64,000 nt of DNA. It comes from Catenuloplanes indicus. Its GTDB lineage: Bacteria; Actinomycetota; Actinomycetes; Mycobacteriales; Micromonosporaceae. Positions 23,695 through 29,198 of this stretch are shown piece by piece; the first letter of the stretch is position 1, and every line of letters begins with the position of its first letter. The DNA is taken from assembly GCF_030813715.1 (NCBI RefSeq), contig NZ_JAUSUZ010000001.1:1550001-1614000 (forward strand), given 5' to 3'. The translations under genes were made by a program, and so were the position numbers. The notes under the pieces are model-generated. The model did no database searches. It saw only the letters and a program-made list of their open reading frames with translations, and had not been told where the DNA came from.

Positions 23695-24096
23695 ATGGAG
23701 AGTAAGCCGGTGGGAAACCGACACGAGATCGCCGCCCTGCCGCCCGAATCCGACCTTGCCCGGGCCGACTCGCTCGCGCGCGAGATCTTCTCCGACATCG
23801 CGAACAAGTGGGCGCTGCTGATCATCGAGTTCCTCGGCATGCGTGGCACCATGCGCTTCGGCGAGCTGCGCGACGAGATCGGCGGCATCAGCCACAAGAT
23901 GCTCACCCAGAACCTGCGCACGCTGGAGCGCAACGGCCTGGTCACCCGCACCGTCCACCCGACGATCCCGCCCCGCGTCGACTACACGCTCACCGACGCC
24001 GGCGACGCCCTCCGCGCGGTCGTCGACGGCATGTGCGACTGGACCCAGCGCTTCATCTCACACATCGAGAATTCCCGTACCCGGTACGACGCGTGA
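23695..24096 (+). CDS. HxlR-type winged-helix transcriptional regulator
   Basis: A 133-residue MarR/HxlR-like DNA-binding protein. Core motif: [19 protein letters not shown] (helix 1), [26 protein letters not shown] (recognition helix), [21 protein letters not shown] (wing). Unlike many HxlR proteins it has no cysteine before the NKW motif, so a thiol redox switch is unlikely at that place; a Cys in DGMCDWTQ near the C-terminus remains. Start uncertain: ATG 23695 has a close GGGAG, GTG 23710 has GGAG at 9 nt. Divergent from ctaD by 97 nt and facing the lasso cluster, with 280 nt to the precursor. Confidence 0.8.
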
Positions 24097-24253
24097 GCGT
24101 CCCCTTTCGGCGGATCATCGTTCTCCGGTCTTGAGTAATTCCATTTGATTTGCTTTTGCCGCGCAATTTCCACGGCGCTCCACCATGGAATGAACAGGCG
24201 CCGGCCTCATTGCCACACCCATTCGCCACCGATAACGTTTTCGCAGTCGGAAG

Positions 24254-24332
24254 CGGTGGCACCGCTGAAATCCGACGATATCGGGGCCGCCGGCGCATCC
24301 GGTGGCACCGAATCCATTGCATCGGCCGATGC
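24254..24332 (+). promoter_or_regulatory. Promoter/operator region of the lasso cluster
   Basis: Within the low-GC 280-nt gap before the precursor gene there are two copies of CGGTGGCACCG (24254-24264 and 24300-24310), itself a palindrome around one central base, spaced 46 nt apart. A perfect 14-bp palindrome GCATCGGCCGATGC (24319-24332) follows, 44 nt before the precursor ATG. A weak -35/-10 pair TTGCAT-N16-TACGTC (24317-24344) overlaps the palindrome. This looks like a regulated promoter; the regulator is unknown. Confidence 0.4.
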
Positions 24333-24376
24333 GATTCGTACGTCCACGGCGAAAGCCATTACCGAAAGGTGGCGTC

Positions 24377-24487
24377 ATGCCTTCCTACGAGAAGCCCACG
24401 CTGACCCCGCAGGGCGACTTCCGCACCGAGACCGGCATCGGGAACAAGGGCCCGAAGGACCTGCTGGGCGGCAAGCAGCTCCTCTGA
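24377..24487 (+). CDS. Lasso peptide precursor
   Basis: A 36-residue precursor. The leader (1-20) carries the actinobacterial motif Y-x-x-P-x-L-x-x-x-G-x-F: SYEKPTLTPQGDF, ending RTETG with the conserved Thr at -2. By analogy with citrulassin, whose leader also ends Thr-Gly and whose core starts with Leu, the predicted core is IGNKGPKDLLGGKQLL: an 8-residue ring from Ile1 to Asp8 and an 8-residue loop/tail. An alternative is cleavage one residue earlier (Gly1 to Asp9 ring). AAGGTGG precedes the ATG. Directly downstream lie cyclase, RRE, protease and exporter genes, which supports the call. Calculated neutral monoisotopic mass of the 16-residue lasso is 1631.97 Da. Confidence 0.85.
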   Translation: MPSYEKPTLTPQGDFRTETGIGNKGPKDLLGGKQLL

Positions 24488-24553
24488 TCACGGTGCACAC
24501 CGGGCGGCGGCTCCGTGCCGCCGCCCGGCCCCTGCGGAGGAAGGACCAGCGCC

Positions 24554-26398
24554 ATGTTTCGTCCCCGTCACATCGCCGGACTGCCCGACTGGTTCCTCGT
24601 GATCCCGGACGGCCCGGCCACCGCGGCCGCGGCCGAGCGGTTGCGGCCGTTCGCCGGCCGGATCGTCGGCCATCCCGGTGAGCGGCCCTGGTTGCTCGGC
24701 AGGTGGACCGTCGAGCGGCTGACCGTCGGCACGGCCGGCGACGTCACCGTTGCGGTCTCCGGCACCCACCTCGTCCCCGTCGAGGACGCGCGCCGGGCCG
24801 CCGAGCGGGTACGGGCGACCGGCCGGGTCGACGGCACGCTGCTCGACGCGCCCGGCAGCTATCACGTGATCGTGCGTGCCGGGTCCGGGACGTACCTGCG
24901 CGGCGGCGCGACCGAGGTGCGCCGCGCGTTCGTGACCCGATCCGGTCCGGCCCCGCTCGCCGCCGACCGGGCCGACGTGCTCGCCGCGCTGTACGACGCG
25001 GACCTAGACCTCACCCGGCTGGCTCTGCACCTGCTCGACCCGCAGACGCTCCACCCGCTGGCCGGCACGCCCGTGTGGGCCGGGATCGACGCGGTCCCGG
25101 CCGGGTCGTGGGCGCGGATCGACACCGCCGGCCGCGTCGGATTCCGGCGCTGGTGGAATCCGCCGGAGCCGGTGACCCCGATGGCGGCGGCCGCGGACGG
25201 GCTGCGTGACGCGCTGACCGACGCGGTGCGGGTGCGTACCGCCGGGCGCCCGCTGGTCACCACCGATCTGGGCGGCCTGGACTCGACCGCGGTGTGCAGC
25301 GTCGCCGTCACCCGCGGCGGGACCGCGGTCGCGGCGTACACGGTCGACGTGCACGACCCGCTCGGCGACGACGTGCGGTGGGCCGAGCGCACCGTCGCGG
25401 CGCTCGGGATCGAGCACCACCTGGTGCCCGCCGCACGCATGCCGATGACCTACGACGGGCTCACCGGGCCGGGCGAGAACTGGGACGAGCCGTGCCTGAC
25501 CACGGTGGACCGGAACCGCTGGAAGACGCTCATGCGGATGGCCGTGGACCGTGGCTCCACGCTGCACCTGACCGGGATCGGCGGCGACGAACTGCTCTAC
25601 GGCTCCGTCGCTCACCTGCACACGCTGCTGCGCCGACGGCCCCGGCTCTCCTGGCGCGCGCTGCGCGGCTTCGAGGCCAAGTACCGCTGGCCGCGCGGCG
25701 AGATGCTGCGCCAGCTCGCGGACCGGCGGCCGTACCGGGCCTGGCTCGCCCGCACCGGGGACGAGCTCACCGCACCGCCGCCGTCGCTGCGTGAGCCGCT
25801 GCTCGACTGGGGCAGCCCGCCGCGGCTGCCGCCGTGGACCACGCCGGACGCCGCCGCCGCCGTCCGTGCGCTGCTGCGCGCGGAGGCCACGGACGCGGAG
25901 CCGCTCGCGCCGTCCCGGGGCCGGCACCGGGAACTGGAGGCCATCCGGTCACTGTCCCGCACCACCCGGCAGCTGCGCCAGATGGCCGCGCCGCTGGGGC
26001 TGGACTACGCGGCGCCGTACTACGACGACCGGGTGGCCGAGGCCGCGCTGCGCACCGATCCGGCGGACCGGATCACGCCCTGGCGGTACAAACCACTGAT
26101 CGTCGAGGCGATGCGCGGGGTGGTGCCGGAGGCCAGCCGTGACCGCGCCACCAAGGCGAACGCGATGGTGGAGGAGGAGAGCGGCCTGCGCCGGTACCGC
26201 GGCGACCTGCTGGCGCTCTGCGACGACTCCCGCCTGGCCCGGCTCGGGCTGATCGACGCGGCCGCGTTCCGGGCGGCGTGCGCCCGCCCGCCCGCCGGCG
26301 ACCTGCAGATCGGCGTGCTGCACCAGACTCTCGCCTGCGAGGTCTGGCTGCGCTCGCTGGAGGAATCGGCCGTTCCGGCCGGAGGAGGACCGAGATGA
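24554..26398 (+). CDS. Lasso peptide cyclase (asparagine synthetase-like, C protein)
   Basis: A 614-residue homologue of asparagine synthetase B. The N-terminal third is a degenerate glutaminase-like domain without the catalytic Cys2 (starts MFRPRHIAG), as in lasso cyclases. The ATP-pyrophosphatase domain has the PP-loop DLGGLDSTAV at 238-247; the usual SGGxDS reads LGGLDS here. GIGGDELLYGS and APYYDDRVAEAAL are further signature parts, and KATKAN-type RATKANAMVEEE lies near the end. The enzyme should adenylate Asp8 of the core and join it to the N-terminal amine. GGAGGAAGGA upstream; ATGA overlap with the RRE gene. Confidence 0.9.
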   Translation: MFRPRHIAGLPDWFLVIPDGPATAAAAERLRPFAGRIVGHPGERPWLLGRWTVERLTVGTAGDVTVAVSGTHLVPVEDARRAAERVRATGRVDGTLLDAPGSYHVIVRAGSGTYLRGGATEVRRAFVTRSGPAPLAADRADVLAALYDADLDLTRLALHLLDPQTLHPLAGTPVWAGIDAVPAGSWARIDTAGRVGFRRWWNPPEPVTPMAAAADGLRDALTDAVRVRTAGRPLVTTDLGGLDSTAVCSVAVTRGGTAVAAYTVDVHDPLGDDVRWAERTVAALGIEHHLVPAARMPMTYDGLTGPGENWDEPCLTTVDRNRWKTLMRMAVDRGSTLHLTGIGGDELLYGSVAHLHTLLRRRPRLSWRALRGFEAKYRWPRGEMLRQLADRRPYRAWLARTGDELTAPPPSLREPLLDWGSPPRLPPWTTPDAAAAVRALLRAEATDAEPLAPSRGRHRELEAIRSLSRTTRQLRQMAAPLGLDYAAPYYDDRVAEAALRTDPADRITPWRYKPLIVEAMRGVVPEASRDRATKANAMVEEESGLRRYRGDLLALCDDSRLARLGLIDAAAFRAACARPPAGDLQIGVLHQTLACEVWLRSLEESAVPAGGGPR

Positions 26399-26652
26399 CG
26401 ACCACGTTGCGCAGCGGCGTCCTGATGACCGAGACCGACTACGGCGTCGTGCTGCTGGACGAGCGCACCGGCGCCTACTACACGCTCAACCCGACGGCCG
26501 CGCTGGTGGTGCGGACGCTGGACTCCGGCGGTGACGGCGCGGCCGCGGCCGCGGCACTCGTCGCGCAGTTCGGCGCGGACCCGGCTACCGCGAGCGCGGA
26601 CGTGGCCGAACTCGTCGGCTCCCTCCGCACGGCCGGGCTGCTGCGCCGATGA
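26395..26652 (+). CDS. PqqD-like RRE protein (lasso B1)
   Basis: An 85-residue PqqD-fold peptide-recognition element. Family features: LMTETDYGVVLLDERTG, AYYTLNPTAALVVRTLD, and the C-terminal helices ending VGSLRTAGLLRR. In lasso systems this protein binds the leader peptide (the YxxP/L region) and delivers the precursor to the B2 protease. It overlaps both neighbours by ATGA junctions, so the cyclase, RRE and protease are translated as a coupled block. Separate RRE and protease genes are usual for Gram-positive lasso clusters. Confidence 0.9.
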   Translation: MTTTLRSGVLMTETDYGVVLLDERTGAYYTLNPTAALVVRTLDSGGDGAAAAAALVAQFGADPATASADVAELVGSLRTAGLLRR

Positions 26653-27065
26653 GCATGCCGGAGACCATCCCGTACAACCCGGGGTCGTTGCCCTTCGTCA
26701 CGCGATGGGCGGCGCGCGCGGCCGTGACCGTGGCCCGGATGCTGGCCCGCTGCCGCCCGGACCGGGTCCGGTGGGTGATGGGCCGGCTGCATCGCGGCGC
26801 CCGCCCGGCCGGCACCGCCCAGGCGCTGGCCGCGCACCGGGCGGTGACCACGGCGAGCCTGTACTGCGCCGGGCGCGAGGGCTGCCTGCCCCGGTCGATC
26901 GCGGTCGCGCTGCTCTGCCGCGCCCGCGGCACCTGGCCGACCTGGTGCGTGGGTGTCCGGCGGCTGCCGCCGTTCGCCGCGCACGCCTGGGTGCAGGTGG
27001 ACGGTGAGCCGGTCGGCGAGGAGTTCCCCGCCGACTACTTCCGGCTGCTCTACTCGGTCGGATAG
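26649..27065 (+). CDS. Lasso peptide leader protease B2 (transglutaminase-like)
   Basis: A 138-residue cysteine protease. The catalytic triad is visible as Cys79 (GREGCLPRSIAVALL), His112 (FAAHAWVQV) and Asp118 (VDGEPVG), in the arrangement of the transglutaminase-like B2 family. It should remove the leader after the Thr-x motif of the precursor with help from the RRE protein. Start ATG overlaps the RRE stop (ATGA); the exporter starts 5 nt after its stop. The first 60 residues are helical and Arg-rich as in other B2 proteins. Confidence 0.9.
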   Translation: MSMPETIPYNPGSLPFVTRWAARAAVTVARMLARCRPDRVRWVMGRLHRGARPAGTAQALAAHRAVTTASLYCAGREGCLPRSIAVALLCRARGTWPTWCVGVRRLPPFAAHAWVQVDGEPVGEEFPADYFRLLYSVG

Positions 27066-27070
27066 CGCCC

Positions 27071-28801
27071 GTGCGTGCCGATCTGGCCCGCTGGCGGGAC
27101 GTGCGGCGGCTCACCGAGGGGCACCGGCGCGCGATCGCGGCCGCGGCCACGCTCAGCCTGGCCGGTTCCGCGCTCGCGCTGGCGCAGCCGGTCCTGGCCC
27201 GGGACGCGGTCGACACGGCCGCGTCCGGCACCGTGCCGTGGCCGGTGCTCGGCGCGCTCGTGCTGCTGTTCGCGGCGCAGGCCGGCACGATGGCGCTCGG
27301 CCGGTACGTGCAGGCGCACACCGGCGAGGCCATGATGCTGCGGCTTCGCCGTACTCTGATCGGTCATCTGCTGCGGGTACGGATCCGTGACCTGGACCGG
27401 CACCGGATCGGTGACCTGATCGCACGCGCCGGTGGCGACACGGCCGTGGTCCGCACGCTCATCGCGCAGAGCCTGGGCTCCGGTATCGCCGGCGTGGCCG
27501 GCCTGGCCGGGACCGTGGCGCTGCTGGCCTGGCTGGATCCGTGGCTGCTGGTCGCGGTCAGCCTGATGTTCGGGATCGCGGTGGCGGCGCTGCTGGCGAT
27601 CGTGCGGCGGCTGCGGACCGCCTCGCGCGGCGCGCAGGAGGCGGAGGGAGCGCTGGTCGCGGACCTGGAGCGGGCGCTCGGCGCGATGCGCACGGTCCGG
27701 GCCGCCCGCGCCGAGGCGTGCGAGAGCGCGCGAGCCGCCGCGGTCGCGCGCCGCGCCCGGGACGCGAACGTGCGGATGGCCCGCCTCGCCGCGGTGAGCG
27801 GACCGGCGAACGACCTCGCGGTCAGTGGCGCGTTCCTGGTGGTGCTGTTGATCGGCGCGACCCGGGTCGCGGCCGGGCAGACCAGCCTCGGTCAGCTGGT
27901 GGCGTTCACGCTGGCGATGACATACCTGGCCGCGCCGATCGGGGAGATCTTCCTGGCGGTGACCGCCATCCAGCAGGGTTCGGGCGCGCTGCACCGGATC
28001 AACGAGGTGCTGGCGCTGCCCCGGGAGAACGACCCGGCGCCGGGCCGGCCGCACGCGCCGTCCGGGCCGGTGCTGGAGCTGCGCGGCGTCTGGTTCGGCT
28101 ATCACCCGGACCGGCCGGTGCTGCGCGGCGTCGACCTGGTGGTGCCGGCGCGTGGCCACCTGGCACTGATCGGACCCTCCGGAGCCGGCAAGTCCACGAT
28201 CTTCGCACTGGTCGAGCGGTTCTACGACCCGGACCGTGGCGCGGTGCTGCTGCACGGGCAGAGCGTCGCGTCCATACCGTACGGCCGGCTGCGCGCCACC
28301 GTCGGCCTGGTGGAACAGGACTGCCCGCTGCTGCACGGCACGCTGCGCGACAACCTGCTCTACGGCAGCGGCCCGGTCGGCGACGACGAGCTGCACCGCA
28401 TGCTGGCGCTGACCAGCCTGACCGACGTGGTCGCGGCGCTGCCCCGGGGGCTGGACACCGACGTCGGTGAGCACGGCCGGCTGCTCTCCGGCGGGCAGCG
28501 GCAGCGCGTCGCGATCGCCCGCTGCCTGCTGACCCGCCCCCGCCTCATCCTGCTCGACGAGCCCACCGCCCACCTGGACCCGGACAGCGAGCGCGCGCTG
28601 GCCGACACGATTCGGGACGTCTCCCGGGTCTGCGCGCTGATCGTCATCGCACACCGCTTCTCCACCGTGCGCGGCGCCGACCGGGTCGTGGTGCTGGACG
28701 GCGGCCGGGTCGTCGCCGGTGGCACCCATGAGGACCTGCTGCGCCGCAACGCGTACTACCGCCGGCTGGCCGCCTCCGCGGCCCTGCCGGTCAGTCCGTG
28801 A
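27071..28801 (+). CDS. ABC transporter, fused membrane and ATPase domains (lasso exporter)
   Basis: A 576-residue half-transporter. Six membrane helices occupy about residues 20-300; the ATPase domain has Walker A GPSGAGKST (about 368), Q-loop LVEQDCPL, signature LLSGGQRQRVAIARCLL, Walker B LILLDEPT and the H-loop IAHRF. All catalytic motifs are intact, so a homodimer should be active. GTG start at 27071, 5 nt after the protease stop. Position at the end of the cluster indicates export of the mature lasso peptide and self-immunity. Its last 11 bases overlap the convergent ridA-like gene, so there is no room for a terminator. Confidence 0.9.
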   Translation: MRADLARWRDVRRLTEGHRRAIAAAATLSLAGSALALAQPVLARDAVDTAASGTVPWPVLGALVLLFAAQAGTMALGRYVQAHTGEAMMLRLRRTLIGHLLRVRIRDLDRHRIGDLIARAGGDTAVVRTLIAQSLGSGIAGVAGLAGTVALLAWLDPWLLVAVSLMFGIAVAALLAIVRRLRTASRGAQEAEGALVADLERALGAMRTVRAARAEACESARAAAVARRARDANVRMARLAAVSGPANDLAVSGAFLVVLLIGATRVAAGQTSLGQLVAFTLAMTYLAAPIGEIFLAVTAIQQGSGALHRINEVLALPRENDPAPGRPHAPSGPVLELRGVWFGYHPDRPVLRGVDLVVPARGHLALIGPSGAGKSTIFALVERFYDPDRGAVLLHGQSVASIPYGRLRATVGLVEQDCPLLHGTLRDNLLYGSGPVGDDELHRMLALTSLTDVVAALPRGLDTDVGEHGRLLSGGQRQRVAIARCLLTRPRLILLDEPTAHLDPDSERALADTIRDVSRVCALIVIAHRFSTVRGADRVVVLDGGRVVAGGTHEDLLRRNAYYRRLAASAALPVSP

Positions 28802-29198
28802 TCGCGGTGGCCTCGATCTCGACCAGGTGCTCCGGTACGTCGAGCGTGGCGACGCCGAACAGGGACGCGGGCGGCGTGGCGGTGATGCCGAGGCGGGCGG
28901 TGGCGCGGGCGATGCCGTCGAGCAGCAGCGGCATCTTGTCCGGGGTCCAGTCGACGACGTGCACGACGAGCTTGACGACGTCGTCGAAGGTGGCGCCGGC
29001 GGCGGTGAGCGCGGTGGCGACGTTGACGTAGGCCTGCTCGACCTGGCCGGTCAGGTCGCCGACCGCGATGTTCGTGCCGTCGGCGTCCCAGGAGACCTGG
29101 CCGGCGATGTGGACGAAGCGGGAGCCGGTGGCCACGGAGACGTGGTGGTAGACGGGGATCTCCGGCAGGCCAGCCGGGTTGATCAGGGTGACAGCCAT
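28791..29198 (-). CDS. RidA family protein
   Basis: A 135-residue member of the RidA/YjgF/Rid family, trimeric enzymes that hydrolyse reactive enamines and imines released by PLP enzymes, or act as detoxifying deaminases. Features: VHIAGQVSWDADG, DLTGQVEQAYVNVATALTAAGATFDDVVKL and the C-terminal HLVEIEATAI. The classical RidA arginine is not evident in the usual VAVHVVD-like segment, so it may belong to an Rid subfamily with different activity. Convergent with the lasso exporter, overlapping 11 nt. A near-perfect inverted repeat (29210-29240) lies just upstream of its start. Confidence 0.85.
   Translation of the reverse strand: MAVTLINPAGLPEIPVYHHVSVATGSRFVHIAGQVSWDADGTNIAVGDLTGQVEQAYVNVATALTAAGATFDDVVKLVVHVVDWTPDKMPLLLDGIARATARLGITATPPASLFGVATLDVPEHLVEIEATAITD

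Follow-up and report, generated by a model that had tools for sequence, protein, structure and literature searches.

A probable lagmysin-type lasso peptide gene cluster with a shortened cyclase PP-loop

The stretch of DNA analysed here (64,000 nucleotides, positions 1,550,001 to 1,614,000 of contig NZ_JAUSUZ010000001.1; hereafter the window) carries at 24377–28801 a lasso peptide cluster of five plus-strand genes, for a precursor, a cyclase, an RRE, a B2 peptidase and an ATP-binding cassette (ABC) exporter. The first-pass annotation had read a complete lasso cluster from the letters, which is borne out by the five genes listed below, with family profiles matching every protein. Our reading, from sequence comparison, is that this is very probably a cluster for a class II lasso peptide of the lagmysin type.

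24377–24487, plus strand: lasso precursor (A), 36 residues, MPSYEKPTLTPQGDFRTETGIGNKGPKDLLGGKQLL; leader of residues 1–20 ending in TG, predicted core IGNKGPKDLLGGKQLL
24554–26398, plus strand: lasso cyclase (C), asparagine-synthetase-like (PF00733; cyclase trees; AlphaFold model)
26395–26652, plus strand: PqqD-like RRE (E/B1), predicted leader binder (NF033530; solved relative TfuB1)
26649–27065, plus strand: B2 leader peptidase with Cys79, His112 and Asp118 (NF033537; residue positions)
27071–28801, plus strand: ABC exporter (D) with a GTG start, its membrane domain and ATPase fused in one protein (PF00664 and PF00005)

The profile scores of the cluster proteins are far above chance. The B2 peptidase reaches 122.8 bits with the lasso B2 profile NF033537 (cut-off 33) and 94.2 bits with Transglut_core3 (cut-off 26), and the Cys79/His112/Asp118 set proposed earlier occurs at exactly these positions. 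PF13471 has a single match in the 9.2-Mb genome (E up to 0.001), namely this peptidase, which is thus the genome's only B2-type peptidase by that profile. The RRE scores 102.2 bits with the lasso PqqD/RRE profile NF033530 (cut-off 70), and its closest solved relative is TfuB1 (PDB 6jx3, E 3.4e-13), while the cyclase reaches 129.9 bits with Asn_synthase PF00733 (cut-off 21). The precursor scores 19.9 bits with the lasso leader L3 profile NF033521 (cut-off 19) and, over 24386–24460, 33.2 bits with Pfam DUF5972 (cut-off 22.6); because of this match above the cut-off, DUF5972, listed as of unknown function, may be a family of lasso precursors. The ATGA overlaps described earlier are present at the cyclase/RRE and RRE/peptidase junctions and absent from the other two of the four, where precursor and cyclase lie 66 bases apart, with a strong hairpin between them, and peptidase and exporter 5 bases apart. 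The order cyclase, RRE, peptidase, exporter is common to 18 of the 20 named loci compared.

To place the peptide, we compared the predicted core with 47 of the 62 cores in the table of PMC12427821 (the cores dropped are mostly near-duplicates). The best match is lagmysin, listed there as class II with the core LAGQGSPDLLGGHSLL, which agrees with the window core at 8 of 16 residues and scores 40, against 22.5 for the runner-up; none of 2000 shuffled window cores scored as high against it. The core encoded beside a cyclase of S. lavendofoliae, locus L075, is identical to that of lagmysin. Lagmysin itself has reportedly been isolated and its structure determined.

The cyclase trees point the same way. 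Searching named genomes with the window cyclase as sole query yielded 11 pattern matches, none of them a confirmed relative. With a four-cyclase alignment 36 loci were recovered from 208 pattern matches; 18 of these loci (17 Streptomyces and 1 Crossiella) have cyclases 48–56% identical to the window's over most of the protein. These 36 loci were joined with 30 aligned cyclases from the family sample (31 matches, one of them without a locus), and 63 of the 66 entered a quick maximum-likelihood tree; excluded were L092 (truncated where its contig stops), L094 (with a broken match) and L089 (whose loop the pattern missed). Branch support is the Shimodaira–Hasegawa-like approximate likelihood ratio test (SH-aLRT) only, with no bootstraps, and L061, L098 and L087 sit on long branches. 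The window and L075 cyclases fall in one 12-row clade with an SH-aLRT of 99, a value obtained again in a 64-row tree (the 63 rows plus L089) built without the loop columns discussed below. The named members of this clade have cyclases 49–56% identical to the window's. Precursors were found beside 11 of its 12 cyclases, and all 11 have Asp8 and an [LV]LGG[KH]xL[LV] tail. No precursor was obtained at L073, where the cyclase match starts at base 10 of the locus. Besides the S. lavendofoliae core, the precursors of the 18 Streptomyces and Crossiella loci include LGSRGPRDLLGGKQLL (S. carminius), IKDTGPKDLLGGKQLL (S. qinglanensis), ATGSGPKDLLGGKQLL (Streptomyces sp. H27-C3), IGIKGPKDVLGGKNLL (S. albospinus), LASKTAKDVLGGHNLV (S. 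abikoensis) and LAGTGSPDLLGGHSLL (S. noursei). We use "lagmysin type" for a grouping defined here from the cyclase tree: the window has a cyclase within the clade, a TG-ending leader, Asp8 and the [LV]LGG[KH]xL[LV] tail. In the 10-row neighbour group of the clade most cores are of the GPE type, for example LGFKDGPERFWFFRRKFF; the Streptomyces loci L066, L068 and L070, which adjoin the clade, have cores with strongly aromatic and basic tails, of which the same core is an example.

The citrulassins had been named as the model for this cluster, and here the earlier view gives way to lagmysin as the nearest known peptide. We had ourselves taken up the citrulassins as nearest kin from the family-sample loci L037–L039, and dropped them on the evidence of the lagmysin-core relatives and the cyclase tree. 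After the cyclase of genome G320 (see below), the nearest ones in the family sample are 42–45% identical to the window's, and those of L037–L039, which stand beside citrulassin-like precursors (two of the set being LLGRSGNDRLILSKN and LLQRNGRDRLILSKN), are 43–44% identical. The citrulassin-type precursors L010 and L011 moreover have the identical leader end FRTETG, and their loci encode cyclases 43–44% identical to the window's. Membership of the citrulassin family is nonetheless extremely improbable. Citrulassins are defined by Arg9, the citrullination site (PMC12971885), and the window core has Leu9 and lacks the GNDRLxLSKN sequence; the L037–L039 cyclases lie outside the window's clade (citC itself being outside the comparison), and the named clade members are closer to the window than they are. 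Kinship with triculamin and lariocidin, prompted by the lysine content, was also considered and rejected: the lariocidin core SKKSKPGDGKFGRGVKRG is dissimilar, and the lariocidin cluster has a GNAT gene, of which there is none among the five genes of this cluster.

The ring acceptor of lasso peptides is an Asp or Glu at core position 7–9, and direct reading of the precursor places Asp8 there. The division of leader and core after TG, as first proposed, agrees with the homologous precursor, in which the published lagmysin core follows directly after TG, and the proposed Ile1–Asp8 ring with an 8-residue tail is supported by homology through the Asp8 common to the clade's precursors. Thr19-Gly20 is present in 8/8 precursors of alignment A2 and in 20/20 of alignment A3 (20 precursors chosen by hand; L064, L077, L078 and L099 excluded). 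A cut one position earlier would yield GIGNKGPKD and a nine-residue Gly1–Asp9 ring, in keeping with the 39 of 62 cores in the PMC12427821 table that begin with Gly; it is very unlikely, given the invariant Thr-Gly pair, the start of the lagmysin core after TG and the Leu1–Asp8 ring of citrulassin N (PMC12971885, as above). The neutral masses of the two products, recomputed as 1631.972 and 1688.994 Da, agree with those given before (1688.99 Da for the earlier cleavage).

Under the lagmysin-type assignment, the YEKPTL..G.F leader would be bound by the RRE and removed by the B2 peptidase after Gly20; the cyclase would then activate Asp8 with ATP and link it to the Ile1 amine to close the 8-residue ring, the tail LLGGKQLL would be threaded through the ring, and the product, with an expected mass of 1631.97 Da, would be released by the ABC exporter. 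We infer cleavage, cyclisation, threading and export from the lasso family. That the tail offers no bulky aromatic residue might suggest a branched cyclic peptide whose threading is unstable for want of an aromatic plug, which we regard as improbable: the core does lack aromatic residues, as originally noted, and the same is true of citrulassin A and of lagmysin, which is listed as class II with the same kind of tail (PMC12427821 table). As for its role, we guess that the peptide most likely works outside the cell, on other actinobacteria.

Several points weigh against the assignment. The cyclase falls below the cut-offs of both lasso-specific NCBIfam profiles (NF033561, 245.5 against 300; NF033535, 35.1 against 525). 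The link to lagmysin runs through L075, equated with the producer's cluster by its identical core, and the lagmysin core is known here from one review table, that of PMC12427821. The ratio of nonsynonymous to synonymous substitution rates (dN/dS) of the core against G001, a genome of the same genus, is 1.83 on 3 base changes, the precursor being too short for a selection test. Finally, the PP-loop of the cyclase, DLGGLDST (residues 238–245, within residues 237–246 at 25262–25291), is one residue shorter than the usual DLSGGLDST and lacks the Ser of SGGxDS.

It is very improbable that this loss has made the cyclase defective, so that no lasso peptide would be made, for all that DLGGLDST stands in place of DLSGGLDST. 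The loop with GG is found in 12/12 rows of the window's clade, the lagmysin-core cluster included; the cyclase is under purifying selection (see below), and its AlphaFold model is confident (predicted local distance difference test, pLDDT, 89.6 overall and 94 for the loop in both ten-residue blocks). Because the lagmysin-core cluster has the same loop, the short form is most likely active and probably no defect.

Across the 30 aligned cyclases and the 36 further loci, the main loop forms are DLSGGxDST (long), DLGGxDST (GG) and DLSGxDST (SG), counted in 30, 22 and 10 rows of the trees, respectively. In the 63-row tree the long-loop rows form one side of a branch (SH-aLRT 97), and the 32 clear short rows separate from the 30 clear long rows with a single change, also without the loop columns. 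The GG and SG forms need two changes each and have thus switched within the short-loop lineage. L078, whose short loop reads HLSGLDSS, and L089, whose long loop DLSGGLGST has lost the Asp, were kept apart as "other"; when these two are treated as a group, the long group needs two changes instead of one. L089, a Streptosporangium locus in which the signature Asp has become Gly, has no precursor by pattern search and may be decayed. A tentative idea, which we hold to be rather doubtful, is that the lagmysin-type cyclases belong to a lineage in which the ATP-pyrophosphatase signature lost one residue, SGGxDS becoming GGxDS or SGxDS, and has since stayed short, ATP being bound or turned over by way of the modified loop, possibly in connection with substrate choice. 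A literature search on the shortened loop named no lasso cyclase among the matches listed, which is no proof that it is undescribed.

The cyclase is present in three of the five genomes of the genus (100, 90 and 82% identity). The core is identical to the window's in G004 and has one change, Lys4 to Arg, in G001. A precursor search of 354 genomes of the family gave 50 matches at E up to 1, of which just four were strong (E 8.5e-14 or better): the window's own genome, G001, G004 and G320, which belongs to another genus and has the core IGAHGPKDLLGGKQLL. Among 397 sampled genomes of the order there were 4 matches at E up to 0.01, and the sole one outside the genus, in G386, has the core LGTNRGPERLLVFRFSL. 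The site of the cluster is delimited by two flanking genes.

Up to 24096: HxlR regulator, upstream flank of the cluster
28791–29198, minus strand: RidA-family gene, downstream flank of the cluster

The same HxlR and RidA genes flank the cluster in G004 and G001. In G002 (L128) the site is empty, with 9 bases between the two genes, and in G003 (L127) the aligned flanks enclose 603 unrelated bases, in which a search for cluster remnants gave a best protein match of only E 0.26; a 71% DNA match to 25133–25184 (E 0.024) was taken as chance. Because the flanks are the same in three genomes and the site is empty in the other two, the cluster is, on this sequence evidence, a cassette. In G320 the cluster aligns and the flanks do not. 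No mobile-element gene was identified among the six neighbouring genes. The cluster enzymes are under purifying selection as judged from dN/dS, which against G004 and G001 is, respectively, 0.27 and 0.33 for the cyclase, 0.23 and 0.28 for the RRE, 0.52 and 0.47 for the peptidase and 0.14 and 0.21 for the exporter, and 0.39–0.58 for the four larger genes against G320. In the core, ring positions 2–4 vary, while the ring-closing segment and the tail are kept from the window's genus through to Streptomyces, and for this reason the conserved part may be the likelier functional face, which is a weak inference.

Two candidate control elements lie around the precursor gene.

24254–24264 and 24300–24310, plus strand: palindrome pair CGGTGGCACCG, candidate operator upstream of the precursor
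24488–24553, plus strand: hairpin between precursor and cyclase, putative expression-ratio element

The palindrome occurs twice in the window, against 0.26 expected (3 of 100 shuffles reach two), and the pair is the single one at a spacing of 25–45 in the 9.2-Mb genome. Upstream of the cluster the exact palindrome is found twice in G001, once in G004 and not in G320, and a one-strand scan of 17 named loci with GGTGNCACC showed no consistent occurrence. The pair is perhaps an operator. Scans of 24000–24700 for promoters and terminators returned none of either. The hairpin (24485–24553) folds with −40.3 kcal/mol and a z of −2.63, 4 of 200 shuffles folding as well, and it possibly sets the expression ratio of precursor and cyclase; folds of the relatives at the same gap were computed without shuffle controls.

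The claim of an undescribed core stands for the letters searched and falls for the type of peptide, which was already described. The fragments GNKGPKDLLGGK, KDLLGGKQL, LLGGKQLL, KDLLGGK and RDLLGGK had no match in the open-access papers searched, a set that leaves supplements and most subscription papers outside. The exact peptide thus looks new, while the lagmysin kind is known. What the locus adds is a predicted lagmysin-type lasso peptide, with an expected mass, from a genus probably other than Streptomyces. The activity of lagmysin is listed as unknown in a comparative-genomics paper (PMC6780079), and the natural core series, with variable positions 2–4 and a conserved tail, is a ready set for probing its function; the shortened loop poses a simple question of enzymology.

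Other lasso loci were seen on the way. Eight loci of the same family (L040, L042–L046, L048 and L053) have precursors of the form TAG|SLFT(S/N)CRES(F/Y)VTQKP..(I/V)C(S/N), which contain Glu8 and a pair of Cys, and cyclases with the DLSGxDST loop. L050 has two differing lasso-like precursors in tandem ahead of a single cyclase. The core of L064, LAPTEGPNGSSV, has no acid at positions 7–9 beside a cyclase free of stops, perhaps through frameshift or decay. By eye, the tails DLLGGKQLL (24458–24484) and DLLGGHSLL of lagmysin resemble DLFGGHTFI of propeptin with aliphatic in place of aromatic residues, the propeptin core scoring only 9.5.

Among solved folds, the closest to the cyclase model are TsnB9 and beta-lactam synthetase, which are 15–16% identical to the window cyclase and catalyse different reactions. 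The closest solved relative of the RRE, TfuB1, is presumably the fusilassin/fuscanodin RRE. The fuscanodin core WYTAEWGLELIFVFPRFI (PMC12427821 table) is unrelated to the window core. The citrulassins share with the window the TG-ending leader, the aliphatic residue 1 and the Asp8 ring, and citrulassin A also its lack of aromatic residues; in contrast, they have Arg9 and the GNDRLxLSKN tail, and their cyclases carry the long SGGxDS loop and stand elsewhere in the tree. Compared with lagmysin, the window core differs at 8 of 16 residues and has three Lys against none in lagmysin, the L075 cyclase is 50% identical to the window's, and the genus is probably other than Streptomyces. The two nevertheless have in common a 16-residue core with an aliphatic residue 1 after TG, Gly5, Asp8, LLGG at positions 9–12 and a terminal LL, and the window shares with the L075 cluster its gene order, its cyclase clade and the short PP-loop.

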